Shown here piece after piece: positions 11,895 to 37,224 of a stretch of DNA of 64,000 nucleotides. Each line of letters begins with the position of its first letter. The first letter of the stretch is position 1. A model generated the notes under the pieces. It saw nothing but the letters and a program-made list of their open reading frames with translations. It did no database searches and had not been told where the DNA came from. Source of the stretch: Akkermansiaceae bacterium. Its GTDB lineage: Bacteria > Verrucomicrobiota > Verrucomicrobiia > Verrucomicrobiales > Akkermansiaceae. The stretch spans positions 3,457,226 to 3,521,225 of the forward strand of contig CP059069.1 of assembly GCA_017798145.1 (NCBI GenBank). Reading direction: 5' to 3'. The position numbers were made by a program, and so were the translations under genes.

Positions 11895-11981
11895 GCAGGC
11901 CCGCATCCGGTTTTCACCGCTGCACCTGATTCGCGCCTCGACATCGCCCGGCCCGGTATCCAACCGTTAGGCCATCCGAAC

Positions 11982-14900
11982 ATGAAATTCCGTGCCGTCA
12001 CCTTGTTCATGGCAGTCCTCTGCTGCGCCCTCGACCTTGTTCACGGCGCGGAGGCAGCCGCAACGGCATGGTCGGATAGGCTCGGCAGCGAAGACCCCGC
12101 CGTCTGGAAAAAGGCCGAGGCCGATCTCCAGGCAGAAGGCGCGGCCGCGCAGGGCGCCCTCACCCGCCTCGCGGAAAACCCCGACCCATGGGTCGCCGCC
12201 CGCGCCGAACGCCTCCTGATGGCCCTGCGCGGCATCGACCCGCGGCTGCCGCGCAACATCCAGCTCTCCCTCCTCGGCTACCCCGATCTCGGCGCAGCCG
12301 CCCGGGCGGAACTTTTGGATACCCTTTCCCGCCCCGGCCCAGGCCATCTCGGTGCCTTGATCTTCCTGATCGGGCAGCCGCAGACGGAGGGAGAAGGATG
12401 GAACCAGCGCCTGCGCAACGCCATCGCCCAGAATCCCGCCGACGTGGAACTGATCAAGCCCGAATCCGTCCCTCCGGCAACGCTCGGCCTCCTGTTCTCC
12501 TGCTTTCCCGACCACCCGCAGGGAGCCAAGGAGGAACGCTACGCGAAGTGGCGCGCCCTCAACCCGGACATCCGCTTCCACATCCGCCGCGACCAGGTGG
12601 AGCTGGAAATCGGAAGATTCAGGGAAAACGCGGAGACCGCGGAGCTGCTCTCATATCTCCCCCGGGTTCGCGACGCCGAAGCGAGGATCCACGCAGCCAG
12701 GTTCTCACGCGGCCTGATCATGGCGGACAAGAAGCTCGCCCCCGATTCCCTCGATGAAAACGCCAGCATCGGCCATCTCCTTGTGCTTTCATCGGATTCC
12801 AGCGCGGTCGAGTGGTATGCAAAGCACCTCGCCCGCCACCCTGGCATCGCGGATTCGCTGCTTCCCGAACTAACAAGCCTCACCATCAGGCACCTTTTGG
12901 CACAAAGGGATTTGGAGAAAGCGATCCTCCTCTTCCTCGCACCGCAGGATGAGACCTGGCACGTGCGCACGGTCGATTGGAATCTCCTCCGTGAGATCGG
13001 TGCAGCGCTGGGCAGCGATCCCGCAGCCCTGCCCGACGGCCTTCCCGAGATCAACAACCCATCCCGCTTCCCCATCATGGGCAGCATCCTTGACGCCTGG
13101 TTCAAGGCCAACCGCGAAAACAATGATAACGCGGCTCCCGGTGGAAAAACCGAGTGCTTCGACCGCTGGGCGAAAACCGATGAATGGCTGGAAGCCGCAC
13201 ACCGGCACGGCGCCCTCGACCTTTACCAGCGCCTCATGATACGACGCGGGAAATTCACGGAAACGCTCATTCTCCACGAAAGCGACAGGAACCATTACGC
13301 ACTGATGAACCTCGGTGAGCTCCTCGTGTCCCAACCCAAGCTTGTCCCGCTTGTCCCCGCCGGGAAATGCACCGTGGAAACCCTGCGCTCCCTGCTGCAC
13401 GGAGCCATTTCGAGCTACGAGTCCGCATGGCGCGAATCCAAGCCGCAGCCCTCCTTCGGGATGGCGGCGGCATGGCTGGAAACCCACCCCAACCTGTTGG
13501 AGAAAGACAGCTTCTCCACCGCGCCGCTCTATCAGGCCGCCCTCGACTGGAAGGCCGGCCGCCGCGCCCAGGCCGCCGCCGCACTGCTAGCCACAACCAA
13601 ACCGATCATCACCGAGTTCGGCGGCCGCACCCACTCGAACCCCAACCCCATCGCCAGCCACGCCATCGCCATGCTCGCGGATCTGCTCGCAGCGTCCCCG
13701 GATGCCGACCTGCAAGCCCTGCTCCCCGCCGAAACCGCCACGCGCGAAAACCTCACCTTCATCCTCGAACGGCTCGGCAAACGCAAGAGCCACGCACCCG
13801 CTGACATCCGCATGAGCCTTGCCCTGACCGCCCTGATCCGCGAGCGCTTCGACCCCGAAGGCATCCTTTTCGCCATCGATGCATACAAAGGCCGCAGGAT
13901 CTCACTCGATGCATGGATGGCCGGGGATGAAAATCTCGCCGGGGACATCCTCATCGCATCCTTCCTTTCCAATCCCGACAAGGAGGAGCAATACGACGGC
14001 GGGTCGGCATGGGCGATCGCACTGCTGGGACGCGCGGGGGAGGCCATGGAAAAACTCGACTCCGCGAAGGCCTCACTGGCCGCCCCGGTGTATCGCTCGA
14101 AACGCGCCCGCCTGCTCCAAGTCCTCGGCCGGACCAAGGAGGCCATGGAAACCGTGTCCCCGGAGCACCAGCCGAACCTACGCCTCGCCCTCGCCCTGGA
14201 GACGGGCGAATGGGATGCGGCGGCTTCCGCATCGGCGGCGGCTTATGACGAAATGAGCGCGACCGCAGCGGCGAGATCCTGCATCGATACCCTTTCCGGA
14301 GATCCCGACCGCGTCAAAAGGCACATCAACTCGAACCTCGGCACCATCCGCCTGCTCAACGGTGACAGCCTGCGGGAAGATGATCTCGTGGAAATGGCGC
14401 GGGATTCGGAGGTCGCCGCCGACTTTGAGCGCATCCTCGCCGCAGCGCTCGCCTCCGGGACGGACGTCCCCTACCTGCAGCTTTCCCAATACCTACAATA
14501 TCCCGATCTGCTCCCCGACAAGCCCCGCGCCATCCAGCTCGCCGCGGAGGCCGCCGCCAGGGACACCGTCATCATCAACGGCGAGCCGGTCACCGGAGTC
14601 CACAAGATGGTCATCGCCGCAAGCCTGCTCAACCTCGGGCGCGGCGATCTCGCCTACGCGGCGGTTCGCCCGCTCTTTGCCTCCTCCCTCCGGGAAAAAC
14701 CCGCCGTCCCCCTCAAGCGAAGCTACGGCTGGGGATACACGCCCCCGCTGTACGAAGCGTTCAACGCCATCCTCCGCCTCACCCAGATGGAGTGGCCCGA
14801 TCTCCCTGCGGAAAAGCAGATGGGCAAACTCGATGCCATCCTCAGTCATGGGGATCCCTCGCTCCGCGCCCGCAACATGCTCGGGCTGATCTCGAAGCAT

Positions 14901-23021: not shown

Positions 23022-23143
23022 GGGTCTTCGCGCCCCGGTCATGGGGTTCAGGTATCCGATGGCGCGCCGCGCAAGCCTTCGCTGTTGGCTGATTGCCAAA
23101 AAATGGATTTCCCCCCGGGCGATTCCCATCCAATGTATTTGTC

Positions 23144-24499
23144 GTGAAACCCAACAGCAGCGAGAAAGAGATCAAGTCATTCATGGCCGGGCTGAAAAAG
23201 CGGAACCCGGGTGAGCACGAGTTTCACCAGGCGGTGCGCGAGGTGGTGGACACGATCATCCCCTTCACCGCGGAGCACACGAAATACCGGGACGCCTACA
23301 TCCTGGAACGGATGACGGAGCCTGACCGCATCATCACCTTCCGCGTCACCTGGGAGGACGACAATGGCCGTGTCTGGGCGGATCGCGCGTGGCGGGTGCA
23401 GTTCAACAACTCCATCGGGCCTTACAAGGGCGGCCTGCGCTTTCACCCCACGGTCTCGCAGAGCGTCCTGAAGTTCCTGGGCTTCGAGCAGGTGTTGAAA
23501 AATTCCCTCACAGGCCTGCCTATGGGTGGCGCGAAGGGCGGATCGAACTTCAATCCCAAGGGGCGTTCCGACCGCGAGATCATGCGTTTCTGCCAGTCGA
23601 TGATGATCGAGCTGCACCGCCACATCGGCGAGGACGTTGATGTCCCCGCCGGTGACATCAACGTCGGCGCACGCGAGATCAGCTACCTTTTCGGAACCTA
23701 CAAGCGCCTGGAAAACCGCTTCGCCGGCATCCTCACAGGCAAAGGCCTTGCCTTCGGTGGCAGCCTCGTGCGCAAGGAGGCCACCGGCTACGGGGCGGTG
23801 TATTTCATGAAGCACATGCTCGAGCACGCGGGCGAGGAAATGAAAGGCAAGACCGCCCTAGTCTCCGGCTCGGGGAACGTCGCCCTCTACTGCATCGAGA
23901 AGCTCATCGAGCTGGGCGCGACCGTGCTGACCGCTTCCGACTCCTCCGGCTTCATCCACGATCCCAAGGGCATCACCCGCGAGAAGCTCGACTGGCTCAT
24001 CGACCTCAAGGAAAACCGCCGCGGCCGCATCCAGGAATACGCGGAGAAATTCGGCTGCGATTTCCACCAGGGGAAAACCCCGTGGGGCGTGAAGGCGGAT
24101 CTCGCATTCCCCTGCGCCACCCAGAACGAACTGTTGTTGGATGATGCGGTGGCAATGGTGAAAAACGGCGTCAAGGCCATCGCCGAGGGCGCGAACATGC
24201 CCTGCACGGCGGAGGCCACCGATCATTTCCTGGAGCACGATGTCCTCTTTGGCCCGGCGAAGGCGGCCAACGCGGGCGGGGTCGCGGTGTCCGGCCTGGA
24301 GCAGAGCCAGAACCAGCTCCGCATCAGCTGGAGCCGCAAGGAGGTCGATGACCGCCTCGTCGGCATCATGACGGACATCCATGGGAAATGCGTCAGATAC
24401 GGCAGCCGCAATGGCAGGCCGGTCGATTACCGCTCGGGCGCGAACATCGCCGGCTTCGTCAAGGTCGCCGATGCGATGCTCGCCTACGGGGTTGTCTGA
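23144..24499 (+). CDS. gdhA: NADP-type glutamate dehydrogenase
   Basis: Converts 2-oxoglutarate and ammonium to glutamate. With the GTG start at 23144 the protein has 451 residues, matching the hexameric GdhA family (447 in E. coli). Landmarks: GPYKGGLRFHP, LPMGGAKGGSNFNPKG with the catalytic Lys, DVPAGDINVG, and a Rossmann loop VSGSGNVALYC followed by ASDSSG. The Ser-Asp-Ser pattern is as in NADP-dependent enzymes. The C-terminus is GANIAGFVKVADAMLAYGVV. An upstream TTG or a downstream ATG (23183) are other start options. The 3' end overlaps the convergent hpt gene by 16 bases. Confidence 0.95.
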   Translation: MKPNSSEKEIKSFMAGLKKRNPGEHEFHQAVREVVDTIIPFTAEHTKYRDAYILERMTEPDRIITFRVTWEDDNGRVWADRAWRVQFNNSIGPYKGGLRFHPTVSQSVLKFLGFEQVLKNSLTGLPMGGAKGGSNFNPKGRSDREIMRFCQSMMIELHRHIGEDVDVPAGDINVGAREISYLFGTYKRLENRFAGILTGKGLAFGGSLVRKEATGYGAVYFMKHMLEHAGEEMKGKTALVSGSGNVALYCIEKLIELGATVLTASDSSGFIHDPKGITREKLDWLIDLKENRRGRIQEYAEKFGCDFHQGKTPWGVKADLAFPCATQNELLLDDAVAMVKNGVKAIAEGANMPCTAEATDHFLEHDVLFGPAKAANAGGVAVSGLEQSQNQLRISWSRKEVDDRLVGIMTDIHGKCVRYGSRNGRPVDYRSGANIAGFVKVADAMLAYGVV

Positions 24500-25062
24500 A
24501 TAGGGATTCCCGGCATCGCGGCGCCCACCGAGATCACGCTTTCCTTGAGCACGCCGATGAACGGCAGGTTGCGGTAGCGGCCGTCGAAATCCAGCCCATA
24601 CCCGACAACGAACTCGTCCTCGATCTCGAACCCGACATAGTCCGCATTCACTTCCACGGCACGGATGACTTTCTTGCTAAGAAGCACGCAGGTTTTGACG
24701 CCTGCGGCCTCGCCTTCCAGCAGCTTGGACTTCACCAACTGGAGCGTTCGCCCGGTGTCGAGGATGTCATCGAGGATCAGTACGTGTTTTCCCCGGACAT
24801 CCGGCAGCCCGGTGCCCAGCAGCTTGACCACACCCGAGCTTTCCGTGCCGCCGTGGTAGCTCGAGGCACCGAGGGACTCGATGCGGAGCGGCATCTGGAT
24901 GCGGCGGAGCAGATCTGCCATCAGGATGATCCCGCCGTGGAGGATCACGATCGCGGTCAGGTCCTTGCCCTCGTGGTCGCGGGTGATTTCCTCTGCCAGC
25001 TCGTCGAGGCGGGCGAGGATTGTGGATTCGTTGAAGAGGACTTTTTCGAGATCGGCACGCAT
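24484..25062 (-). CDS. hpt: Hypoxanthine phosphoribosyltransferase
   Basis: 192 residues. The PRPP-binding loop VLILDDILDTGRTL (about residues 94-107), the flexible loop SSYHGGTESSG, and the C-terminal base-binding VGYGLDFDGRYRNLPFIGVL are all typical of HPRT, which salvages hypoxanthine and guanine to IMP and GMP. It is the last gene of a tightly packed unit with the SIS-like, GTP-cyclohydrolase-like and RidA genes (3 bases after the SIS-like gene), which may give it a pathway-specific role. Start ATG at 25062 is the only good one. Confidence 0.95.
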   Translation of the reverse strand: MRADLEKVLFNESTILARLDELAEEITRDHEGKDLTAIVILHGGIILMADLLRRIQMPLRIESLGASSYHGGTESSGVVKLLGTGLPDVRGKHVLILDDILDTGRTLQLVKSKLLEGEAAGVKTCVLLSKKVIRAVEVNADYVGFEIEDEFVVGYGLDFDGRYRNLPFIGVLKESVISVGAAMPGIPIQTTP

Positions 25063-25065
25063 GGT

Positions 25066-26100
25066 TCAGGAGTTGGTTGGGGGGTCTTCCGCAGCAGGCA
25101 GCGGGCATTCGAGATGATAGCCTTCCCCGTCGAGTCCTTTCCCCGGCCAGTCGAACTGGCTGTGGGGCGAGTAGTGGATTGCGGTCGCGAGGGCACGGTT
25201 GAGCAGGGCTTCGAAAAAGAAGACGGATGCCGGCTCTGGCACGGGGGAGGCAATCGTGCGGATCGGTGAATCGAGCCGCCCGAACATGGGCAGCAGATGC
25301 GCCGCAAGCGCCGTTTCCGCAGCGGATGCGGATGTGAAAATCCACTGCGCGCATGGTTCCGCATGATTCTGCTGAATCGGGCCATGTGCTGCCTGAAGGA
25401 TATCGCGGCGGACGGGTTCGGGAAGAAACAGCCCCTCGACCCGCTTGAAACCGAGGTTCTGCGGATAATCGTTCGCCGGGCCGATGAAGTTGAATTCGAC
25501 CCCCGAAATGAAATCTTCCGCAAGCGCATCCACTGTTTCCCGAGGGGTTTCATCGACGCTGGAAAAAATCCTTCCGACTTCCGAGGGATCCGGAGGCGCG
25601 GGCGTTCCGGGCAGCACGGAATGCAGCCATTGCCATGCGGTGAGGTAAGTGACCATCGGGCCGATCACCCGCAGCAGGATGGTGAATTCATCGGTCTCCA
25701 TGCAACGGACGAACTCGATCTCATCTCCGGTGAAAGGCGTTTCATCCTGCTCCTTCGCGCTGAAAACGACCGTGCGCGCGAACGAAGGATGGTGGCGGAG
25801 GGCGATCCGTGCGTTGGATGAGAGTCCCTGGGAAAAAACGATGAGCGTTCCGTCCGGAGCGGCTGGGCCGGAGACGGCGAAAGACGAGGGGTTGGCGAAA
25901 GTCGCGGCACCCGGAGCCGTGCGATCCACGAGCGAGCAAAGGAACCGGGCATGCGCCTCGGAACTCCCTATGCCTGTCACGATCCATGGGAAGGGAGGCG
26001 GCTGGGAAGCCCCGATCCGCCTGGCCGCGGCCTCGCACAGGCGCTCGCGGGCGAGAGCCATCCGCGCTTTCAGGAGCGTTATGCTTTCTTCCCGTTTCAT
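25066..26100 (-). CDS. SIS-domain-like protein, unknown function
   Basis: 344 residues, no membrane segments. The first half has VTGIGSSEAHARFL (about residues 41-54) and GTLIVFSQGLSSNARIAL (about 84-101). These resemble the two phosphosugar-binding loops of SIS domains (GxGxS and SQxGxS). A second half with SGVEFNFIGPANDYPQNLGF could be a second SIS-like lobe. Its ATG overlaps the stop of the cyclohydrolase-like gene by 4 bases, and hpt follows after 3 bases, so it is translationally coupled to both. A sugar-phosphate or nucleotide-derived ligand is a reasonable guess; the family call is tentative. Confidence 0.55.
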   Translation of the reverse strand: MKREESITLLKARMALARERLCEAAARRIGASQPPPFPWIVTGIGSSEAHARFLCSLVDRTAPGAATFANPSSFAVSGPAAPDGTLIVFSQGLSSNARIALRHHPSFARTVVFSAKEQDETPFTGDEIEFVRCMETDEFTILLRVIGPMVTYLTAWQWLHSVLPGTPAPPDPSEVGRIFSSVDETPRETVDALAEDFISGVEFNFIGPANDYPQNLGFKRVEGLFLPEPVRRDILQAAHGPIQQNHAEPCAQWIFTSASAAETALAAHLLPMFGRLDSPIRTIASPVPEPASVFFFEALLNRALATAIHYSPHSQFDWPGKGLDGEGYHLECPLPAAEDPPTNS

Positions 26101-27671
26101 GCGCTCGCGTTCGGTGCGCTATCGAGGAAAATCCATTCCACGACCTCAAGGTCCTGCTCGCGGATCGCTGCGCCGTAGTCGCCCTTTGCAACCAGGCTCC
26201 TCGGCGAGTTCACGACCATCTTGACCTTGCTGCTGCGGAGGTGGGCGCGGAGCACCGAGAAGATCCGCTCGTAGTCGCGCTGGTCGAACTCGACCCCCAG
26301 CTTTGCGTAAGACTCCGCAGTGCTGTAGCTGCGCCCGCGCTCAAGCATCATGCGGTCGATCGCCAGCGCACCGAATCCGGCGCCGCGCCCGTCCTGATAG
26401 ACCAGCACGATGCATCCGACGCCATACTCGACGATGTGCTGCACCGATTTCATGTATTTCGCCTTGTTGTCATCGACCATCACCGGGAAGCGGTTGAGGA
26501 TGGACTCGCTCTGGATCCGCACGACCGGCACGTCGTAGCTGTGTGCCTTTCCGTGGGTGAGCACGACGATGTCATGCCCGCTCACCACGTCGTAGTAAAC
26601 GTGCACCCGGAACCAATACGGCTTGTATAGCAGATCCACGAGCGGGTTTTCCGCATCGCTTTCCGACATCGCCTTGAGGCGCTCATAATCGATTTTGATC
26701 AAGACCCGGTTGTTGCGGATGATGCGGTAGCTGTGGACGACGCGATCCGGCAGGCGCATGTGCGCCTCGATGCCGTGATTCGGGAAAAGATCCTCCATTT
26801 CGGCGGTCGTGAGGAGGATCTCGTTGGCGATCGGGCGTATGGGAAGGAAATAGCTCGCCATGTAGATGAAGCGCTCGGCGCTCTCGAGCACGCGCGGCTT
26901 GAAAGGGATGACAGGCTCGGGTGGCTGCACGCTTCGCAATGCCGATAGCAGCGGGCGCTTCAGGAAATGCCCTGAATCGGCCTTGGACTGGAGGTAGAAG
27001 AGGTTGAACGGCTCCGGCTCGTATTCGAGCGTTTCGGTGCGCTCCACGGTCAGCCCGTTCTGTTGCATGGCCTCGACCTTGTCCGGGTTGTTGGTAAGGA
27101 TGATCCACGACGCCTTGATGCGCAGGATTTTCACGATGTCGGCGACGTTGAGATACTGCCGGTAATCCTTTTTCAGCCCGAGCATCGCGTATGCCTCGAA
27201 GGTTGAGAGGCGGTCGCGGCTCGCCTGGACCAGCATGCGGTCGCGCGCCTTCGCCGTGTAGCCGACGCCACGGCCTTCCTGGAGCAGGTAGAAAAGGACG
27301 CCCCGCCCGACCTCGCTGATCCGCTTGATCGCGCCTTCGAGCTGCTGGACGCAGTCGCAATCGCAGCCGCGTAGCGTCTCGCTGGTCACGCAGCTGGAGT
27401 GCATCCGGGTGTGGAGCGGATCGTCCGAGTGGATGTCTCCGTGGGCCAGGGCGATGATGTAGCCCTTCTGGATGATGTCCTGGAAAATGTAGCCGACGAA
27501 GAGCCCGTAGCGGGTCGGCACCTTTGTCTCGGCCAGGAAAACGGTGGTGCCATAGGTGGGCCTGTCATCCGTGGCGGAGGGGTCGTAATGCGCGGCATCC
27601 CCGGCATATTTTTCCAGCTCGGCGAAGATCGGATCGAGGAGCGGCGGGTGGATTGTTGCGGATTCGCTCAT
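26097..27671 (-). CDS. Tandem GTP cyclohydrolase II-like protein, second copy degenerate
   Basis: 524 residues made of two RibA-type domains. The first (about 60-220) keeps the zinc motif C-x10-C-x-C in SSCVTSETLRGCDCDC, the LLQEGRGVGYTAKARDR catalytic segment and IKASWIILTNNPDKVEAM. The second (about 320-500) keeps VYQDGRGAGFGALAIDR and a matching KMVVNSPRSL end. It lacks the zinc cysteines (the equivalent stretch is VRIQSESILNRFPVMVDDNKA). Ordinary riboflavin RibA has about 200 residues or is fused to RibB, so this is a paralogue. Related ring-opening proteins include Urc1 of the fungal and bacterial uracil pathway. It is coupled by 4-base overlaps to ridA upstream and the SIS-like gene downstream. 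Confidence 0.82.
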   Translation of the reverse strand: MSESATIHPPLLDPIFAELEKYAGDAAHYDPSATDDRPTYGTTVFLAETKVPTRYGLFVGYIFQDIIQKGYIIALAHGDIHSDDPLHTRMHSSCVTSETLRGCDCDCVQQLEGAIKRISEVGRGVLFYLLQEGRGVGYTAKARDRMLVQASRDRLSTFEAYAMLGLKKDYRQYLNVADIVKILRIKASWIILTNNPDKVEAMQQNGLTVERTETLEYEPEPFNLFYLQSKADSGHFLKRPLLSALRSVQPPEPVIPFKPRVLESAERFIYMASYFLPIRPIANEILLTTAEMEDLFPNHGIEAHMRLPDRVVHSYRIIRNNRVLIKIDYERLKAMSESDAENPLVDLLYKPYWFRVHVYYDVVSGHDIVVLTHGKAHSYDVPVVRIQSESILNRFPVMVDDNKAKYMKSVQHIVEYGVGCIVLVYQDGRGAGFGALAIDRMMLERGRSYSTAESYAKLGVEFDQRDYERIFSVLRAHLRSSKVKMVVNSPRSLVAKGDYGAAIREQDLEVVEWIFLDSAPNASA

Positions 27672-28141
27672 GGTTGGTTCGGTGTGAGTTCGACAATCAG
27701 TTGGATCTCGACGGTGGAATTTTTCGGAAGTCCGGCGACAGCGACAGCGGCACGTGCATGCATCCCGGCATCGCCGAGCACTGTCAGGAAAAGGTCGCTT
27801 GCGCCGTTGATGACGAGCGGGCTTGAAGGGAAGCCTGCGATGGCGTTCACGTATCCGCTGAGCGAAACGATCTGTTCGACCGCATCGAGCGAGCCCGCCG
27901 CCTGCTTGATCACCGCGAGCGCATTGAGGGCGCAGACGCGCGCGGCTTCGTAGCCGGATTCGACCGTCTGGGTGTCGCCGACCTGGCCTTCGTGGGTGAT
28001 TTCGCCCTCGCGGCTGGCGATGACGCCCGCGAGATAAAGCATGTTCCCGACGCGCTTGTAGGGTACGTAATTTCCGCCCGCCGCCGGTGGGGCAGGCAGG
28101 GTGATTCCTAGATTCGAAAGCTTTTTCTCTATGTCTGACAT
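27668..28141 (-). CDS. RidA/YjgF-family protein
   Basis: 157 residues of the RidA fold. The pattern NYVPYKRVGNMLYLAGV at the N-terminal part and GDAGMHARAAVAVAGLP with VEIQLIVEL at the end are family features. The Arg in HARAAV is the residue that binds carboxylates and permits enamine/imine deamination. It belongs to the longer subfamily rather than the short housekeeping RidA. It is the first gene of a coupled unit: its stop overlaps the start of the cyclohydrolase-like gene. Start at 28141 preferred over a long unlikely upstream extension that runs antisense to the amidase. Confidence 0.9.
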   Translation of the reverse strand: MSDIEKKLSNLGITLPAPPAAGGNYVPYKRVGNMLYLAGVIASREGEITHEGQVGDTQTVESGYEAARVCALNALAVIKQAAGSLDAVEQIVSLSGYVNAIAGFPSSPLVINGASDLFLTVLGDAGMHARAAVAVAGLPKNSTVEIQLIVELTPNQP

Positions 28142-28210
28142 GGAATGGGTTCTGCTGGACAAGCAGAAATCCCGCCAGAATGAGAAATCCCCACCATTTG
28201 GCCAGAATCC

Positions 28211-29482
28211 ATGAGCGGAGCTAGTTTCCATGGCGACGGTTTCGCGGATTTCGCGGCTTGGAGGGCTCTGGCGGCAGAAGGATCGACCCCGGCTGCGATC
28301 CGGCGGATGCAGGAGCGGCTTGCCGGGATGGACGGTGCGCAGCAGGCCTTGGCCGGAGGGAAGCTGTGGGAGGCCGCTGAACCACGGGACGGGCCGCTCG
28401 GCGGGGTTCCCTGGGTGCTCAAGGATTTGTTCGATGTGGCGGGGATGAGGACGCTCGCTTCGTCGCGATTGCTGGAGTCTCTTGCCAGCCCGGCGGAATC
28501 GGATGCCGCCGTGGTGCGTGACCTGAAACAGGCGGGTGCCGTGTTGATCGGGAAGACGCACCTGAACGAGTTCGCCTATGGTTTGGATGGGGTGAATCCG
28601 CATTTCGGCACGGTGCCGAATCCGCTGGTTCCCGGAGCCTTGGCGGGCGGGTCCAGCAGTGGTTCGGCATGGGCGGTGGCTTCCGGTTTGGTGCCGCTGG
28701 CCGTGGGAACGGATACCGGCGGATCGATACGGGTTCCGGCGGCCTATTGCGGGCTGTATGGATTCCGGATGGTGCCGGAGCATGCCTGGAGCCGCGAAGG
28801 GGCTTTCCCCCTGGCTCCGCGATTCGATACGGCTGGCTGGCTGGCCTGGCACCGGAGGGATATGGTGGAGATGCTGCGATGGATGGGAGCTGGTTCCGGC
28901 GCCGGGTGCGGGGCGGGCCTGGCGCTGGCCCCGGAGTTGCCCGGGCTGTCCTCGGGGTGGGCGGAGGAAGCCGGCTGCGGCGAGTTGGCGGATTGGAAAG
29001 CCGACACGGCGGATCTGGTGACGGCTTTCAATGTCCTGCAGAGCTCGGCAGCCTACGAGGTTCATAGTAGATGGTTGCACGCCAACAGGCGGGACTACGA
29101 CCCGGCCACATGGGGGAGAATCGCCCGGGCGGAAGCTTGGACGGGGGATGAGCGGAGACGTGCGGAGGAAACGGCAGCCGTCTGGTCGTCATGTCTGGAA
29201 GGCTGGATCGGCAGGCACGGGTTTCTGGTCTTGCCGACGGTGCCGGGCTCCGCTCCCCCGTTGCGGCAAGGCATGGGCGATCAGGATCGGGAAACGGTGC
29301 TGGCATACACCGCGCCGGCGAGTCTCGCCGGGCATCCCGTGCTCTCGGTTCCGTTTGAGATGTCCGGAGGGTTTCCGAGCGCTGTCCAGGTGATCCTGCC
29401 GCGATCGCTCGACCGCGCCCTCGATGTGGCGCTGGTGGTCATGGCGCGGATCGATGCCGCAGGGGTCAAGCGGATTCGTTGA
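28211..29482 (+). CDS. Amidase-signature family hydrolase
   Basis: 423 residues. The Ser-cis-Ser-Lys triad is visible: Lys71 in PWVLKDLFDVAG, the cis-Ser in GGSSSGSAWAVA (about 147-158), and the nucleophile Ser172 in GTDTGGSIRVPAAYCG. Acts on an amide or carbamate; substrate unknown. Resembles allophanate hydrolase or GatA-like amidases but is short. Divergent from ridA (69-base gap, room for a shared promoter region). Its 3' end overlaps the convergent acetamidase gene by 17 bases. Confidence 0.88.
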   Translation: MSGASFHGDGFADFAAWRALAAEGSTPAAIRRMQERLAGMDGAQQALAGGKLWEAAEPRDGPLGGVPWVLKDLFDVAGMRTLASSRLLESLASPAESDAAVVRDLKQAGAVLIGKTHLNEFAYGLDGVNPHFGTVPNPLVPGALAGGSSSGSAWAVASGLVPLAVGTDTGGSIRVPAAYCGLYGFRMVPEHAWSREGAFPLAPRFDTAGWLAWHRRDMVEMLRWMGAGSGAGCGAGLALAPELPGLSSGWAEEAGCGELADWKADTADLVTAFNVLQSSAAYEVHSRWLHANRRDYDPATWGRIARAEAWTGDERRRAEETAAVWSSCLEGWIGRHGFLVLPTVPGSAPPLRQGMGDQDRETVLAYTAPASLAGHPVLSVPFEMSGGFPSAVQVILPRSLDRALDVALVVMARIDAAGVKRIR

Positions 29483-30404
29483 AAATCGCTTCGGGCAGGT
29501 AGCCTGAAATGGTCGTCACGGGCTGGTTCACAAGCTGGCTGACTTTCAGGTCGAGCACCACGCTGCAGAGCACATAAGCCTGCTCCGGGGAAATGCCGAG
29601 CCGCTTGGTGAGGTAGCCGATGAAGCGCCGGACAACGGCCTTGCAAGCCTCCCGGGGATCCTCATGGGACTCGATGAAAACGATCCAGTTGTTCCGGAGG
29701 TAACGGGGAGGCACAAGCGAAGGAGGCACGTTTGCGATGGGGCCACGGGGGGCGCCGCCTTTCACGCGCTCGATCTCGAAGGTGGCGGTCATCGGGGCTT
29801 CCATCCCGTTGATCGAAACCTCGCCATCCCCCTGCGCCGCATGGCTGTCTCCGGCGCAAAACCCCGCACCGGTGGTCGCGACGGGAAGCATGAGCTCGGC
29901 TCCGGCGATCAGGTGTTTGACATCCATGTTGCCGCCCCATGGGCCGGGTGCGCGTGTCCGGAATTCCCCCTCCGCCGCGCGTTGCACGCCGATGATCCCG
30001 CAGAAAGGGTGCAGGTCGAGCGTTACGCCGGGCATTGAGCTTGTCTGGGATTCATCGAGTTTCCAGTGGAAGAGGAAATGCTGCGGGAAATCCTCGGGCA
30101 GTAGGCCTAGCCCCGGGATGATGCTGGTCCATGCCCAGCCGTGGTGGCGGTATTCCAGGATCTTGATGCGAAGCGCGTCACCCGGCTCCGCCCCATCGAT
30201 CCCGACGGGGCCGGTGAGTGCGTGGATGAGCATGGTATCGATGCCTGCGAATTGCGCGCTGGTCATTCCCGGGAAAACCTGTCCGCCGCTGGCATCCAGC
30301 ATTTCAAGGGTGATCCTGTCGCCGGATTCGATGGTGTGGCGGGCAGGCACGCTGTTGTCCCAGCGGTGGATGGTTGGCTTGGCTTCGAGATGATGGTGGT
30401 TCAT
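29466..30404 (-). CDS. Acetamidase/formamidase family protein
   Basis: 312 residues of the FmdA/AmdA family, which hydrolyse formamide or acetamide to ammonium and the acid. Visible features are the N-terminal HRWDNSVPARHTIESGD, GPWGGNMDVKHLIAGAELMLPV and GAGFCAGDSHAAQGDGEVS, which includes the metal-binding region, and SSVVLDLKVSQLVNQP near the end. The start at 30404 overlaps the stop of the creatininase gene by 4 bases. It is the last gene of the six-gene minus-strand unit. Releases a small acid in a longer pathway, by inference. Confidence 0.9.
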   Translation of the reverse strand: MNHHHLEAKPTIHRWDNSVPARHTIESGDRITLEMLDASGGQVFPGMTSAQFAGIDTMLIHALTGPVGIDGAEPGDALRIKILEYRHHGWAWTSIIPGLGLLPEDFPQHFLFHWKLDESQTSSMPGVTLDLHPFCGIIGVQRAAEGEFRTRAPGPWGGNMDVKHLIAGAELMLPVATTGAGFCAGDSHAAQGDGEVSINGMEAPMTATFEIERVKGGAPRGPIANVPPSLVPPRYLRNNWIVFIESHEDPREACKAVVRRFIGYLTKRLGISPEQAYVLCSVVLDLKVSQLVNQPVTTISGYLPEAIFNESA

Positions 30405-31213
30405 GGTTTCAGACTGTCCTTGGCATTTTCCAATGCGGCCCATTTCGCAAATTCCGCGATCGACTCCGCGAGGGCGCGGCTCCCGGCCTCCAGCCAGGCA
30501 TGACCGTCCCCGGCTGTGGCAAGGGTGGCATCGCCGATGGTGCCGCTTGTGGAAAGGTCGGAGGTGATCCATGAGAAGATCGCGGGGGCGGCTTCCGCCC
30601 GCAGTTCGCCAGCCGAGCTGGCCGTCGCAGGGTATTCACGGTTGGCGAGATCCGCTTTCACGAGGCCGGGCGTGAGCGCGAGCATCCATGCGGTTTCGAC
30701 CTGCCCGGCATGGAAGCCGTGGGCTTGCTCATGATCGCTGGCCGGCGGCGTGAAGCTTGGCTTGAGCAAGGCGGTGTGGAGCTTCGTCCCGGCCTGGATT
30801 TCGCGCAGGCAGGAGCGGACGACCTGGATGTTGCCGCCGTGCGTATTGAGCACGAGAAGGTGGCGGAAGCCCCATGTTTCGAGTTGGGCGGCGATGGAGC
30901 GGATCAGTCCGGCGAGCAGTTCCTTTCCGATGGAAAGGGTGCCTGCAAAGCCGGTGTGCTCGTTGCTTTTCCCAACCGTGATGGGCGGGGCGACGAGGCA
31001 AGGGACATCATCCGCCAAGAGCGGCAGCGCGAGGTCAAGCCAAGCCTGCGCCAGCATCGCATCCATCCCCACTGGCAAATGCGGGCCGTGTTGCTCGATT
31101 GCGGCCGTCGTGAGGATGACCGGCGTGATCGCCTTGTCGGGCAGCGCGGCGATTTCGCCGAGCCGCATGGCCGCCAGCGAGCGGTGCCGCCATGATGGGA
31201 GAGCGGCGTTCAT
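30401..31213 (-). CDS. Creatininase-family amidohydrolase
   Basis: 270 residues. The metal-binding motif AAIEQHGPHLPVGMDAM (about residues 37-53) supplies Glu, His and Asp. EHTGFAGTLSIG, NTHGGN and HAGQVETAWMLAL add the remaining His and Glu. All ligand positions of the family are kept, so it should be an active metallohydrolase. Family members cut creatinine, deformylate a ribosylaminopyrimidine (ArfB) or mature mycofactocin. Coupled by 4-base overlaps to a degenerate paralogue upstream and acetamidase downstream. Confidence 0.92.
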   Translation of the reverse strand: MNAALPSWRHRSLAAMRLGEIAALPDKAITPVILTTAAIEQHGPHLPVGMDAMLAQAWLDLALPLLADDVPCLVAPPITVGKSNEHTGFAGTLSIGKELLAGLIRSIAAQLETWGFRHLLVLNTHGGNIQVVRSCLREIQAGTKLHTALLKPSFTPPASDHEQAHGFHAGQVETAWMLALTPGLVKADLANREYPATASSAGELRAEAAPAIFSWITSDLSTSGTIGDATLATAGDGHAWLEAGSRALAESIAEFAKWAALENAKDSLKP

Positions 31214-31950
31214 GCGAGCGGCGGATGGTTCAGGATTTCGGTGGTGAGCCGGATCAAATGCTCGGCAGACCGTGCGAGTATTTCCGGTGCCGCCGCGTTG
31301 GCTTCGGCGAGCGAAAGCGGCTCAGGCATCGTCCACTCCGGCGGATCCCATGGCGCTTCCGCTCCGGCGGGCAACCCGGGTTTGTTAGGTGCGGGGCTGG
31401 CCCCGATGGCGGGCGGCTGACGTAGGATGGAAGTGACGAGAGTCTGGGCGCGCAGGCGTCCTTCCGGACAGGCCGGATGCAGGTCGATGCCGAGTCCGCT
31501 GAGGTTGATGATGAAAACCTGGATCCCGGATTCGGCGCGGAGATCCCGACCTGCCGCATCGACGATGTCCTCATGGAAAGGCGAGGCGTTGACGAAAACG
31601 AGTTTCCGGAATCCGCTTTCCGCCACGGATTTCCCCCAGGCGGCCAGGTGGGAGAACGCGATTTCCAGAGGCACGGGGAAGCTCGTCCGGGCATGTGGGC
31701 CGGCCGCGAAACGGCAGGGCGGGAGCGTCAGCCATTTGCCCTGTACCGGGTGGATTTCCGCAGCGTGGCGAAGCAGGGCCGTGATGATGAGTTCCTCCGC
31801 GTCCAACGGGTGGCCAAGCGCCCAGTCGCTGTGTCCTGTGACCGGGCAGAGCACCAGAGTCCCTGCCTTGTCCGGCCATTTCTCCAGCTCCTGCCAGCTC
31901 CTGTGCGGCCAGAAAGTCGGGGAATCGTGGATGCAGAGATCGGTGAACAT
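31210..31950 (-). CDS. Degenerate creatininase-like protein
   Basis: 246 residues, same fold order as the downstream creatininase. The first metal motif is PVTGHSDWALGHPLDAEE in place of IEQHGPHLPVGMD, with the Glu and first His lost and the final Asp kept. The NTHGGN equivalent is FVNASPFHEDIVD. This suggests loss of at least part of the metal site, so it may be a non-catalytic partner or have a changed activity. Overlaps the active paralogue by 4 bases. The homology call rests on order and spacing of motifs, so it is moderate. Confidence 0.6.
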   Translation of the reverse strand: MFTDLCIHDSPTFWPHRSWQELEKWPDKAGTLVLCPVTGHSDWALGHPLDAEELIITALLRHAAEIHPVQGKWLTLPPCRFAAGPHARTSFPVPLEIAFSHLAAWGKSVAESGFRKLVFVNASPFHEDIVDAAGRDLRAESGIQVFIINLSGLGIDLHPACPEGRLRAQTLVTSILRQPPAIGASPAPNKPGLPAGAEAPWDPPEWTMPEPLSLAEANAAAPEILARSAEHLIRLTTEILNHPPLA

Positions 31951-31954
31951 GGCT

Positions 31955-33190
31955 TCAGTCGCAGGGGGATTCGAAGCCGGGATTCCGATAAAGGGCTTTC
32001 CCTTGGCGGAGGGTCATGAGCACCTCTGCCGGGGTGGTGCGGGTGATGATGGATGCGAGCAGGTTCCGGGTATGGCGGAGGTGGGGCGCATGGAAATCGA
32101 GCAGGCAGAGGTTCGCTGGAAGCCCTTCTTCGATGCGGCCTGGAAAGCGGTCTCCGAAGGCCAGGCCGGCGTTGGATGTGGCCATTTTCAAAATCGCGGC
32201 AGGATCCGGGAAACGCGGGTCCGCATACTGGCTGCGCGCGACCTTGTAGGTGAAGTCCAGTTCGGCGAGGAGGTTCGGGCTATTGAGCATGCCGTTGTCG
32301 GTGCCGAGGAGAAGCGTCACGCCCGCTTCCAGCAGGGCGGCGATGGGGGGTAGGGGGAGTCCGAGGGCGGCGTTCGCCCGCGGATTGATGACTGCGGGAA
32401 TTCCGCTGGCGGCGAGGAGGGCGATCTCTTCCGCATCGGCGACCGTCAGGTGGATGATCAGGTCTGGCTCCAGGAGTTCGATGGCGCGGGCGAGGTCGCC
32501 CTTTCCGGTGCGGCTGCGGCTGAGTTCGCGGTATCCCGCATTTTCAAGGCAATGGATCGCGCGCAGCTTGCCCTTGCTGCGTGTGATGCCGCGGATCTCG
32601 CCCCAAGCGGGCGTTGTCAGGTCGTTCATCGTGCTCTCGCTGAAGCCGTCGGCGATTTCAAGCATCGCCTCCAGCTCTGCGATGGCGCTTGCCGGGAGGG
32701 AAGCCTGATCGAGATCCAGTTCCGCCATTTCAAAAGGCGCATCCTTGAACTGGCTCAGGATGATCGAGTCCACTCCGGTGGACAAGGAGGCTTTGCGAAG
32801 GAGCGCCGCACCGGCGGCACCCATCTCCCGGAAATCCGCATGAAGCGATGTGCCGCAGCGGGCCATGTAAAGGAGGTGCGCCTCGATGTCAGGCAGGATG
32901 GATTCGCCACGTGCCCCGAGCTCGCGGTATTTGTAGCCGTTCGGCCGGAAAAACCCCTCTTCGAGCGTCAGGCCGGTGGCTCCATCGGGCAGTGCGCTGT
33001 CGCCCATGTGGGTGTGGGCGTTTGCCATGGATGGCATGACGACCAGCGCCCCGTCATCCAGCTGCGTCGCCGGGGCGCGGCGGACGATGCGGCTGCACAC
33101 GCCTCCGCTGACTTCCAACCCGTCCACCCACCACGGCTCCAGATCGGGGCCCAGCAGCGCGATGCAGTTTTTCAGCGAGAAATCATCCAT
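31955..33190 (-). CDS. Amidohydrolase-superfamily deaminase/hydrolase
   Basis: 411 residues, cytosolic. Visible TIM-barrel metal motifs: ANAHTHMGDSAL (HxH, about residue 58), LRAIHCLENAG (His after strand 5), IIHLTVADAEE (His), and LLLGTDNGMLN with the final Asp. The order fits the subgroup of guanine deaminase, S-adenosylhomocysteine deaminase and related enzymes acting on cyclic amidines. Substrate unknown. It is followed 4 bases later by the degenerate creatininase gene and preceded 6 bases earlier by the DUF3891 gene. Confidence 0.88.
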   Translation of the reverse strand: MDDFSLKNCIALLGPDLEPWWVDGLEVSGGVCSRIVRRAPATQLDDGALVVMPSMANAHTHMGDSALPDGATGLTLEEGFFRPNGYKYRELGARGESILPDIEAHLLYMARCGTSLHADFREMGAAGAALLRKASLSTGVDSIILSQFKDAPFEMAELDLDQASLPASAIAELEAMLEIADGFSESTMNDLTTPAWGEIRGITRSKGKLRAIHCLENAGYRELSRSRTGKGDLARAIELLEPDLIIHLTVADAEEIALLAASGIPAVINPRANAALGLPLPPIAALLEAGVTLLLGTDNGMLNSPNLLAELDFTYKVARSQYADPRFPDPAAILKMATSNAGLAFGDRFPGRIEEGLPANLCLLDFHAPHLRHTRNLLASIITRTTPAEVLMTLRQGKALYRNPGFESPCD

Positions 33191-33196
33191 CCACGG

Positions 33197-34015
33197 CTAT
33201 GCGGTTAGTGTGACGGGAAACGAGGAATCCTTGGCGTTTCCGTAGGCGCTGCGGAATGCCTCCAGGCAGGGTTCCCCGGTTTGTTTGATTTCCCGGTAGG
33301 GGACTTCGACGGTGAGCGAAGGCATGTCGAAGGGATAGGGTGCCAGCTTGTAGCGGTCATTGCCAAGCGGTGTGCAGAGTATCGTTTCGTCGGTGCCGGA
33401 GGTGGTCGGATGTGCGTGCCTGAGCTTGATTGGGGAAGGGTAGCGCGAGCAGACCACAAGTGAGAGGCTGTCGCATGCCTGTAGCAGGCGGAAAGCCACG
33501 TTGAGCGTCCCGGCTGCTGTGAAGGGTGCGAGTCTCGCATCCCTGTTTGCCAGTTCTATGAGTTCCTGCTGGCGCTCGCGCTGACGCTCGACGAAACGCC
33601 CGTGCAGCTCCCTGTCATTTTCGGAGAGCGAGGAAAGGTCGGCCTGTTCGGTGAGCAGGTTGACGGTGTGCATGGAGACCAGCACCGCCGCGTAGGGATG
33701 ATCCGCGGCGACCGCCTCCGTCGCCGCGCCGCGGACTTCGAGGTAGGCGGCGAGATCGATGTTTTCAAAAGCGGAGTAGGAGCCGACAAGGTCTTTCGAG
33801 AAACCGGCGGGCTCACCCGCCGGAGTGAGGTTCGGGCTCGCATCCGGCGCCGCCCAGGCATCGTCATGGCGTGAAATGCCATCAAGGATCGCCGCGAAAG
33901 GCTCGGGGCGGGTGAACTTCGCATTCCCCCAGTGGGAAGCGAAGGTTCCGGCAAGGCGCGCGTGATCCATGTGGCGGATGAGCCACCAGCTGTCGTTTCG
34001 TGCGATGCGTATCAC
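33197..34015 (-). CDS. DUF3891 family protein
   Basis: 272 residues. The N-terminus RHMDHARLAGTFASHWGNAKF followed by ISRHDDAWAAPD and a central HPYAAVLVSMHTVNLLTEQAD have the His/Asp spacing seen in DUF3891 proteins, which may be HD-like metal-binding helices. No signal peptide. In a tight unit between the FAH-fold gene and the amidohydrolase gene, so a role in the same pathway is inferred. No biochemical function is known to me. Confidence 0.72.
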   Translation of the reverse strand: MIRIARNDSWWLIRHMDHARLAGTFASHWGNAKFTRPEPFAAILDGISRHDDAWAAPDASPNLTPAGEPAGFSKDLVGSYSAFENIDLAAYLEVRGAATEAVAADHPYAAVLVSMHTVNLLTEQADLSSLSENDRELHGRFVERQRERQQELIELANRDARLAPFTAAGTLNVAFRLLQACDSLSLVVCSRYPSPIKLRHAHPTTSGTDETILCTPLGNDRYKLAPYPFDMPSLTVEVPYREIKQTGEPCLEAFRSAYGNAKDSSFPVTLTA

Positions 34016-34056
34016 GGGATAGAATCAGCACTTCGGATGCCAGAAAGCATTCTCCC

Positions 34057-34746
34057 TCATGTGGATGGGTCAAGCCTCTCCTCCACCACATCCCGTATCA
34101 GCCGTCCGATTTCAGGGATCTCCACCACGATGCGGTCGCCGCCCCTGAGGTAGCGCGGCGGGTTTTGCTGGTGGCCGACTCCCGAGGGCGTTCCGGTGAG
34201 GATGACAGTCCCCGCTTCCAGCGTAGTGCTGCCGCTCAGGAAAGCGATGAGTTCCATCACGGGGAAAATCATTTCCGTCCTGCTCCGCTGAACCAGCTCC
34301 CCGTTCAGGAAAGTCCGTATCTCCAGGCCCTGCGGATCCGGGATCTCCTCAGGTGTCCGCAGCACCGGACCCAGAGGGCAGAAGCTGTCGAATCCCTTTC
34401 CCTTGCAAAACTGGCCGCCGCCGAGATCGAACTGCCAGTCGCGGGCACTGACATCGATCGCCAGGGTGTATCCGGCGATGTGGGATATGGCTTCGCTTGC
34501 GGATACATTCTTGCAGCTGCGCCCGATGATCACCGCGAGCTCGCCCTCGTAGTCCACCTTGTCGGACCGGAGATGCCGGGGGAGCACGATGGGTTCGCCG
34601 TGGCGAGTGGCCGCCGCCGGGGGTTTCATGAAAACCATCGGGTGCCCTGGCGTCGGTTTGTTGACCTCACGCGCGTGGGAGAGGTAATTGAGGCCGATGC
34701 CGTAGATGGCGGGCAAAGGCATGGTGGTGAAATCCGGGATGGGCAT
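34057..34746 (-). CDS. Fumarylacetoacetate hydrolase-fold protein
   Basis: 229 residues, the short single-domain form. The metal site is seen in VDYEGELAVIIG (two Glu) and AIDVSARDWQ (Asp). The family motifs IYGIGLNYLSHAREV, PMVFMKPPAA and ILTGTPSGVG are complete. Relatives hydrolyse or decarboxylate beta-diketones and 2-oxo acids. It is first in the minus-strand operon, divergent from an SBF-type transporter gene (91-base gap), consistent with an uptake and catabolism pair. Substrate unknown. Confidence 0.93.
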   Translation of the reverse strand: MPIPDFTTMPLPAIYGIGLNYLSHAREVNKPTPGHPMVFMKPPAAATRHGEPIVLPRHLRSDKVDYEGELAVIIGRSCKNVSASEAISHIAGYTLAIDVSARDWQFDLGGGQFCKGKGFDSFCPLGPVLRTPEEIPDPQGLEIRTFLNGELVQRSRTEMIFPVMELIAFLSGSTTLEAGTVILTGTPSGVGHQQNPPRYLRGGDRIVVEIPEIGRLIRDVVEERLDPST

Positions 34747-34837
34747 TCGGGTCCTGTAAGCTAGCTTGATGCCAGCGGATGCGGCAAGTGACGGGAATCG
34801 GCGTGGAAGCTGCTACCCGCCCGCCCTCCATGGAGAT

Positions 34838-35824
34838 ATGATCGGTTCATTGAAACGGAACAGCTTTGTCATCGGGCTTGGTTTGGCTGTCTTGCTGGCC
34901 TGGCTCACTCCCGATTGGGGTGCGAGCGGCGGAAAACTCTCAAGCCAGCTATGGAACAAGGTCGGGATCATCATCATTTTCCTGACCCAGGGCTTCGGGC
35001 TATCCACGGAGAGCGTCGCTTCGGGTTTCAAGAACTGGCGGCTTCATCTCTTCACCCAGTTCTGGATTTCCCTGGGTGCCCCGCTCCTCGTTCTCGCGGC
35101 GCTGGCGCTGGCGGGCGAGCTTGTGCCGCCAGGGCTGCGGATCGCCCTGTTTTTCCTCTCGGTGCTGCCGACAACGGTGTCCTCGGCGGTTGCCTTGATC
35201 GTTGAGGCGGATGGGAATGTTGCGGGCGGGGTTTTCAACACCGTCCTGTCGAATCTTCTTGGTGTCGTGATTGTCCCGGTGGCGGTGGTGGCCTTCTCTG
35301 CGAGGGCGGGCGATGGCGCGCCGCTGGATGTCGTCCCGGCTCTGAAAATGATCGTATCCGTGGTGCTGCTGCCTTTCATCGTCGGGCACTTTCTGCGAAA
35401 GCCCCTCATCGGCTTCGTGCCACGTGTGAAAAAAATCGCCGGGCCGCTCAACCAGTTGATCATCTGCTTCATGGTGTATGCGAGTTTCTCGACCAGCTTC
35501 CGCGATGCGGTGTGGGACAGGGTGGGCGCAGGTTTCGCAGTCGCTGGGTTCGTGGCGGCCCTGGCGCTGCTTGTGCTCATGTCGCTGGCTGTCTGGGCAA
35601 GTGCACGGTGGATGCTCCGGGATGCGCAGGATAGGGTGTCGGCGTTCTATTGCGGCAGCCAGAAGAGCCTGGCGGTCGGCGTGCCATACGCAGCGGCGAT
35701 TTTCACGCTTGGGGGCGGAGGTGTGGATCCGAGCGTGGTGCTGCTTCCGCTGTTGTTCTACCATCCCCTGCAACTTCTGCTGGGTTCCGCCCTGATCCGG
35801 TGGCGCGGGCGCCTCTTCGGCTGA
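34838..35824 (+). CDS. SBF-like (bile acid:sodium symporter family) transporter
   Basis: 328 residues with about 10 membrane helices, of the SBF-like group (PF13593 type). Visible segments include GIIIIFLTQGFGLSTESV, LPTTVSSAVALIVEADGNVAG and FYCGSQKSLAVGVPYAAAIF, the last carrying the conserved Gln/Ser region of the crossing helix. Start ATG at 34838 has GGAG six bases upstream; an earlier in-frame ATG adds 24 hydrophilic residues. Likely imports an organic anion with sodium; divergence from the FAH-led operon suggests a link. metY follows after 47 bases. Confidence 0.88.
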   Translation: MIGSLKRNSFVIGLGLAVLLAWLTPDWGASGGKLSSQLWNKVGIIIIFLTQGFGLSTESVASGFKNWRLHLFTQFWISLGAPLLVLAALALAGELVPPGLRIALFFLSVLPTTVSSAVALIVEADGNVAGGVFNTVLSNLLGVVIVPVAVVAFSARAGDGAPLDVVPALKMIVSVVLLPFIVGHFLRKPLIGFVPRVKKIAGPLNQLIICFMVYASFSTSFRDAVWDRVGAGFAVAGFVAALALLVLMSLAVWASARWMLRDAQDRVSAFYCGSQKSLAVGVPYAAAIFTLGGGGVDPSVVLLPLLFYHPLQLLLGSALIRWRGRLFG

Positions 35825-37155: not shown

Positions 37156-37224
37156 TCCCCGGCAGTGAGCAGGCTATTTCCTTGCTATGGCAGTGTATAT
37201 CGGGGGAAATGTCAGGCCTCTGAT

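Follow-up and report, generated by a model that had tools for sequence, protein, structure and literature searches.

A duplicated GTP cyclohydrolase II-like protein and a putative nucleotide-level route of purine degradation in Verrucomicrobiota

The window analysed here is a stretch of 64,000 nucleotides from an Akkermansiaceae bacterium (contig CP059069.1, positions 3,457,226 to 3,521,225), whose genome consists of a single contig of 4.39 Mb. It carries a gene cluster built around a protein with two domains of the GTP cyclohydrolase II (GCHII; family GCH2), here called the tandem protein, and a partner with a SIS-like fold. From gene families, residues, gene order and co-occurrence we infer that the products of the cluster break down purines at the nucleotide level, with opening of the imidazole ring, and we give this reading a probability of roughly 0.58. 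The strongest sign that ring opener, SIS-like protein and a set of hydrolases belong to one pathway is that they are associated across genomes, though not always as neighbours. The initial annotation placed the system at 24484-28141. This segment holds as its core, whereas the recurrent set, including a hydrolase operon, an amidase and an SBF-like transporter, extends the full system to 24484-35824.

The tandem protein and its SIS-like partner

The core comprises ridA, the tandem gene, the SIS-like gene and hpt, all on the minus strand and all real open reading frames (ORFs) at the coordinates first described. ATGA overlaps join ridA to the tandem gene and the tandem gene to the SIS-like gene, and three bases lie between the stop of the latter and the start of hpt (TGA ACC ATG), so that the coupling of the four genes was verified as originally reported.

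The tandem protein (26097..27671, 524 aa) matches PF00925 in two stretches with 177.6 bits (cut-off 23.3), which correspond to domain 1 at about residues 41-240 and domain 2 at about 346-520, the second stretch scoring 54 bits. It passes the NCBIfam model of the RibA subfamily, NF001591 (182.4 bits, cut-off 148), and falls short of the ribA equivalog model TIGR00505 (152.7 bits, cut-off 205.85). Its AlphaFold model has a predicted local distance difference test (pLDDT) score of 87.7, and domain 1 matches E. coli GCHII (2bz0) with Z 19.2, 36% identity and a profile E-value of 6e-39. Residues were compared in 50 aligned tandem proteins, which, like the 39 SIS rows mentioned below, were taken from the lists of an ORF caller and are a subset of the relatives. 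The zinc ligands Cys94, Cys105 and Cys107, an extra Cys103, the QEGR motif and Arg171, equivalent to Arg128 of E. coli, are invariant in all 50. Tyr105 of E. coli GCHII, a residue that assists ring opening, corresponds to Arg145 in the tandem protein and to Arg in 50/50 relatives, whereas 19/19 canonical RibA proteins from related genomes have Tyr at this position. Domain 2 is without zinc ligands in the same alignment; it mostly keeps a DGRGAG motif, and Arg465 is found in 48/50. Because the GCHII residues are conserved, the sequence points to GTP or another 6-oxopurine nucleotide as the most likely substrate of domain 1.

A separate GCH2 gene is present in 17/17 carriers of the tandem gene, and riboflavin synthesis in these organisms therefore does not have to depend on the tandem protein. 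The replacement of Tyr105 may affect the product. In GCHII paralogues of Streptomyces a Tyr-to-Met change reportedly leaves the formyl group attached, a statement that our literature search did not recover; in archaea, ArfA and ArfB split ring opening and deformylation, and a creatininase-family enzyme removes the formyl group. Given these two precedents, Arg in place of Tyr105 may keep the formyl group on the product. The ArfB model matches the first creatininase-family hydrolase of the cluster weakly (E 5e-4), and the MftE and creatininase models match it far better.

The SIS-like protein (25066..26100) has no match in Pfam, NCBIfam or the PDB (single-sequence search). Its structure model (pLDDT 91.7) shows a double-SIS fold that matches the isomerase domain of GlmS over the whole chain (Z 27.5, root mean square deviation 2.7, 302 aligned residues). 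Other whole-chain matches are NagB-II glucosamine-6-phosphate deaminases, tagatose-6-phosphate isomerases and the deglycases FrlB (Z 21.8) and FraB. Several of these fold relatives form or cleave bonds between nitrogen and phosphorylated sugars. The assignment to sugar-phosphate proteins made in the initial annotation is retained, but judging by the modelled fold a role as isomerase or deglycase acting on an aminated sugar phosphate is a better reading than simple binding. K219, E222 and H239 are invariant in 39 aligned rows. The KxxE and HGP patterns resemble the host GlmS by eye only, as hhalign gave no usable alignment to that protein, and the last Lys of the Glu/His/Lys set of GlmS-type catalysis is not clearly placed.

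The two outer genes of the core are assigned by family. The product of hpt (24484..25062) is a hypoxanthine(-guanine) phosphoribosyltransferase (HPRT) that scores above the cut-off of TIGR01203, and ridA (27671..28141) encodes an imine/enamine deaminase (PF14588/PF01042) in which we take the Arg of the ARAAV motif, which is present, to be the catalytic one.

Distribution, gene order and the hydrolase set

With the C-terminal half of the tandem protein as query and E <1e-60 as the limit of a strong match, the tandem gene was found in 17 of 387 Verrucomicrobiota genomes, distributed over 5 families; weaker matches in the remaining genomes are, by E-value and identity, like those of ordinary GCH2. 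A SIS profile (E up to 1e-8) detected the partner in 16/387 genomes, all of them among the 17 tandem carriers and none among the 370 others, and the set is not a chance assembly of this strain. DUF3891, a marker of the hydrolase operon, is similarly distributed (17/387 genomes, namely 15/17 tandem carriers and 2/370 others). A scan of genome contigs confirmed 113 relatives of the tandem protein, and a chance pairing in one strain was set aside on this ground. The best 80 of the 113 are mostly labelled Verrucomicrobiota, with one Kiritimatiellae and three labelled only 'bacterium' or 'PVC group'. Cerasicoccus maritimus, Coraliomargarita and Geminisphaera are cultured examples of carriers. The earlier claim that a GCH2-family ring opener is coupled to a SIS sugar-phosphate protein, and sometimes to a phosphoribosyltransferase, therefore extends well beyond the strain.

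The window strain has probably acquired the tandem gene, since a full-length copy was found in none of the 27 other genomes of its genus that were searched (two of them without any match, several incomplete). The gene was likewise seen in no genome of the window's family examined except its own. In a tree of 50 tandem proteins the window stands beside Puniceicoccaceae/Coraliomargarita rows, which is only a hint of transfer because long branches meet at this position. Searches of plasmids and phages and a scan of viral contigs gave no full-length tandem relatives, and no relatives of the SIS-like protein were found in plasmids. DUF3891 occurs also on plasmids of haloarchaea and Peribacillus, with uninformative neighbours in the 4/5 records examined. 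Six records of metagenome-assembled genomes titled Akkermansia muciniphila contain a tandem gene (L072, L073, L098, L111, L115 and L126); these labels are probably wrong, and the tree places L072 and L098 with Opitutaceae rows. One genome (G083) has an intact copy (L055) and, beside ridA, a second tandem gene that matches in several pieces and frames (L060:9659-10825), which is probably a decayed paralogue.

Gene order was examined in 91 loci, comprising the 80 best relatives from the contig scan, 10 loci from the surveyed genomes and the window; six loci of surveyed genomes that duplicate a listed contig and the broken copy in L060 were excluded. Two loci each come from at least two genomes, and contig ends truncate many of the loci. 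Since a simple ORF caller misses genes that lie under antisense ORFs, neighbours were counted by tblastn, ignoring marker matches over less than half of the query, and 20 windows at chosen coordinates from 10 carrier genomes served as controls. The SIS gene is the most frequent neighbour (55/91 loci), followed by RidA (30), a PF00860 permease (28), an amidase (27), a TonB receptor (19), Amidohydro_2 (18), NUP (17), adenosine deaminase (ADA; 17), DUF3891 (17), a phosphoribosyltransferase of either kind (14), creatininase-1 (12), amidohydrolase-1 (11), FmdA (10), window-like HPRT (9), the FAA hydrolase (8), creatininase-2 (8) and the SBF transporter (7). Adenine deaminase (PF13382) was found in 8/91 loci and in 0/20 control windows. 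In our reading the two permeases that were compared with NCBIfam models look AzgA-like, and the Amidohydro_2 (PF04909) genes, for example at L047:14374, L050:12793, L057:12804 and L089:4011-5072, possibly represent an alternative hydrolase.

Wherever the SIS gene was found, it lies on the strand of the tandem gene (55/55 loci), within 300 bases in 51; in three more an HPRT-like gene stands between the two (L104, L106 and L118, at about 11470-12050). The exact order of the four core genes on one strand was looked for in the 91 loci and is confined to the window. Shorter parts of it recur, with ridA-tandem-SIS in three loci (the window, L062 and L110), tandem-SIS-phosphoribosyltransferase in 8/91 and tandem-phosphoribosyltransferase-SIS in 3/91. 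The hpt gene is accordingly a recurrent but optional member, as the counts for window-like HPRT and for phosphoribosyltransferases indicate, and the window genome has two HPRT genes, one of them in the cluster; 16/17 carriers have an HPRT over the cut-off. RidA, too, proved recurrent, as part of a larger hydrolase set that the initial annotation had omitted.

In the window, this set lies upstream of the core. Reading on the minus strand from 34746 to 29466, the hydrolase operon encodes an FAA-hydrolase-family protein (34057..34746, PF01557), the DUF3891 protein (33197..34015, PF13030), an amidohydrolase (31955..33190, PF01979; the nearest NCBIfam model, PRK07213, stays below its cut-off), a creatininase-family protein 2 (31210..31950) that is barely above the cut-off of PF02633 (34.7 versus 31.3 bits), a creatininase-family hydrolase 1 (30401..31213, PF02633) and a formamidase/acetamidase-family protein, FmdA (29466..30404, PF03069). 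The two creatininase-family genes overlap by ATGA; for FmdA, whose ORF opens at 30572, a start at 30404 is assumed, which gives an ATGA overlap with the preceding gene as well. On the plus strand, an amidase-signature hydrolase (28211..29482, PF01425) is divergent from ridA, and an SBF-like transporter (34766..35824, PF13593) is divergent from the operon. The cluster has a GC content of 63%, the window one of 62%.

The hydrolase genes, that is FAA hydrolase, DUF3891, amidohydrolase, the two creatininase-family genes, FmdA, RidA and amidase, recur in varied combinations. In locus L139, nine genes from tandem gene to amidase share one strand (tandem, SIS and seven genes of the hydrolase set), and in L062 a single contig combines the tandem and SIS genes with salvage genes and most of the hydrolases. 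DUF3891 and the tandem gene are on different contigs in 7/15 genomes that share them, and in 6/7 of these several hydrolase-set genes adjoin DUF3891, the seventh (G086, L181) having only ridA there. The two genomes with DUF3891 and no tandem gene differ from each other. The surroundings of the DUF3891 genes in G397 yielded no other marker. In G394 (L188:5406-15730) FAA hydrolase, DUF3891, amidohydrolase, FmdA, RidA and amidase lie together beside an NMT1/THI5-like binding protein in a stretch that, as far as read, lacks creatininase-family genes, and this set may serve an imported aminopyrimidine.

Two further genes flank the system in the window. A glutamate dehydrogenase gene (23093-24499, plus strand) is convergent with hpt and overlaps its end by 16 bases; its product could assimilate released ammonia, while a chance neighbour is also possible. 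At 37165-38883 (plus strand) a long protein consists of two similar halves in which FFPPG-like and FP-LY/F-GG-LVG stretches are repeated, possibly a duplicated GlcG/heme-binding-like domain, although this name is a guess.

The proposed route and its alternatives

According to the purine reading, purines would be taken up or freed from nucleosides, adenine compounds would be deaminated, and HPRT would join the 6-oxopurine base to phosphoribosyl pyrophosphate (PRPP); the gene families for this step are present, and the roles are those we would assign to them. Domain 1, by means of its zinc site and catalytic Arg, would then open the imidazole ring at C8 of the 6-oxopurine nucleotide and yield a 6-(5-phosphoribosylamino)pyrimidine; GTP is the most probable substrate, in which case pyrophosphate would be lost. 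In a variant of this step, the change of Tyr105 to Arg may leave the C8 formyl group on a product of the formamidopyrimidine (FAPy) type, from which the formamidase or one of the creatininase-family proteins encoded in the cluster could remove it. Domain 2 would act as a degenerate partner that completes a pseudo-dimer. The SIS protein, similar to GlmS and FrlB, would cleave the ribosylamine bond and return ribose 5-phosphate to PRPP. Finally, the two creatininase-family proteins, the amidohydrolase, formamidase and amidase, RidA, the DUF3891 protein and the FAA hydrolase would remove the formyl and amino groups of the aminopyrimidine, open its ring and release ammonia, formate and a small carbon acid, the order of the hydrolytic steps being guesswork. 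The earlier idea of a base converted to its nucleotide, a ring opened and a sugar processed appears largely right, with a chemistry that is still proposed from the gene families and with a purine as the likelier substrate than a pyrimidine in view of NUP, ADA, adenine deaminase and HPRT.

Several observations weigh against a purine route. As NF001591 is passed, an annotation pipeline would label the tandem protein RibA, and the conservation of GCHII residues does not settle the substrate. The Fisher value of the co-occurrence of tandem and SIS genes (2e-27) is inflated, as are such values in general here, because the carriers share ancestry (11/17 come from one family). Ereboglobus (G117) has the tandem gene without SIS and without DUF3891, a further carrier (G409) is without DUF3891, and G394 holds much of the hydrolase set without a tandem gene. 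Of 48 loci with 8 kb of sequence to either side, 14 have no SIS gene nearby. The 20 control windows gave a marker match only once (amidohydrolase-1, L162), a contrast to the 91 loci that is partly circular because the markers were chosen for recurring near the tandem gene. Just 32/91 loci have NUP, ADA, adenine deaminase or a phosphoribosyltransferase, 23/91 when the latter is not counted, and the ADA-like and second phosphoribosyltransferase examples lie below NCBIfam cut-offs. PF00860 covers purine and uracil carriers alike, two permeases tested remained unnamed by NCBIfam, and the TonB receptor is no purine marker either. In favour of the proposed route stand the results on other purine routes. 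Xanthine dehydrogenase B (TIGR02965) reached the cut-off in none of the 17 carriers (12 without match, 5 with weak matches, which may be other molybdenum hydroxylases or other types of xanthine dehydrogenase), but its absence is firm for 12/17 only, because the model passes in only 1/14 control genomes, which makes the result suggestive. A search for uricase with PF01014, which does not extend to FAD-type urate hydroxylases, gave 0/17 carriers versus 2/14 control genomes.

The tandem protein might alternatively be a variant UTP cyclohydrolase in a URC-like pyrimidine route, with the whole cluster degrading uracil. In the fold comparison UTP cyclohydrolase (7ej3/7eev) indeed ranks directly behind the GCHII structures (Z 13.5), and at the profile level it matches weakly (E 2e-4); uracil carriers, too, belong to the permease family that recurs near the tandem gene, and RidA and amidohydrolases take part in pyrimidine routes as well. 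However, domain 1 is far nearer to GCHII by its profile E-value, NUP, ADA, adenine deaminase and HPRT are purine genes, and the scan of recurrent neighbours brought up no recognisable uracil phosphoribosyltransferase. DUF1688/URC4 had no match in the 17 carriers, where the control genomes were equally silent. With its remote similarity to UTP cyclohydrolase and the purine type of the salvage genes, the uracil route was set aside as improbable. We consider it similarly unlikely that the tandem protein belongs to a biosynthetic branch, either making a flavin-, pterin- or deazaflavin-like precursor that the neighbours tailor or serving as a spare riboflavin enzyme. Membership of the GCHII family, the conserved zinc site and the pass of NF001591 would fit such a role, and the replacement of Tyr105 recalls the Streptomyces paralogues and ArfA/ArfB; yet the other GCH2 gene of all 17 carriers led us to set aside a spare riboflavin gene, and the recurrent neighbours that were scanned comprise deaminases, hydrolases, a permease and a TonB receptor, with no biosynthetic tailoring enzyme recognised among them.

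The loci with separated genes lend some weight to a further alternative, that two systems travel together, namely a clean-up of damaged or formamidopyrimidine nucleotides by tandem and SIS proteins and an independent hydrolase operon for imported aminopyrimidine. It would account for the hydrolase set being on another contig in 7/15 genomes and for its single occurrence without a tandem gene, next to the NMT1/THI5-like binding protein of G394. Independent systems would not need the near confinement of DUF3891 to tandem carriers, though, and we regard this explanation, too, as having a small chance of being correct.

If the purine reading is true, bacteria without uricase would possess an oxygen-independent route at the nucleotide level, the GCHII fold would have been recruited for purine as well as pyrimidine catabolism, and likely roles would emerge for an unnamed SIS family and for DUF3891. 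Purines form a sizeable reservoir of nutrients in water, soil and guts. At slightly less than even odds, the cluster may represent a further kind of purine degradation, in which the nucleotide is made first, the imidazole is opened by a duplicated cyclohydrolase, ribose 5-phosphate is recovered by a SIS deglycase and the aminopyrimidine is hydrolysed, without any requirement for oxygen, uricase or xanthine dehydrogenase. Purine routes investigated to date start with the pyrimidine ring. In keeping with the initial annotation, which put the system forward as a candidate for an undescribed one, no description of a GCH2-based purine route, a tandem GCH2, DUF3891 or this cluster was found in the open-licence literature, most subscription papers and preprints being outside the search.

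Comparison with known systems

Among characterised enzymes, RibA of E. coli (2bz0) shares with the tandem protein the fold of domain 1, the three zinc Cys, the equivalent of Arg128 and the QEGR motif. The tandem protein differs in being duplicated in one chain, in having Arg for Tyr105 and a second domain without zinc ligands, and in the location of its gene in a catabolic neighbourhood of genomes that have a separate GCH2 gene. The SIS-like protein resembles GlmS, NagB-II, FrlB and FraB in its whole-chain fold and, by eye, the host GlmS in its HGP motif and KxxE spacing. Unlike GlmS it ends in WPGKG at the C-terminus; it has no Pfam or NCBIfam match and occurs, among the 387 genomes, only alongside the tandem gene.

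The closest parallel to the proposed route is the URC pathway. There, a base is converted to its nucleotide, the ring is opened by a cyclohydrolase of the GCH2 family and the pieces are hydrolysed, a logic that the route proposed here would share. In contrast to URC (URC1, 7ej3), the set in the window has salvage genes of purine type, a ring opener that resembles UTP cyclohydrolase only remotely (E 2e-4) and a deglycase-like SIS partner, and the carriers are without a DUF1688 match, as are the controls. With the oxidative, xanthinase and reductive routes of purine degradation the cluster would have in common the use of purine as a nutrient source, but it would start at the imidazole ring and at the nucleotide level. 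Should this chemistry prove correct, the cluster would encode a new purine route built on the logic of the URC uracil pathway.

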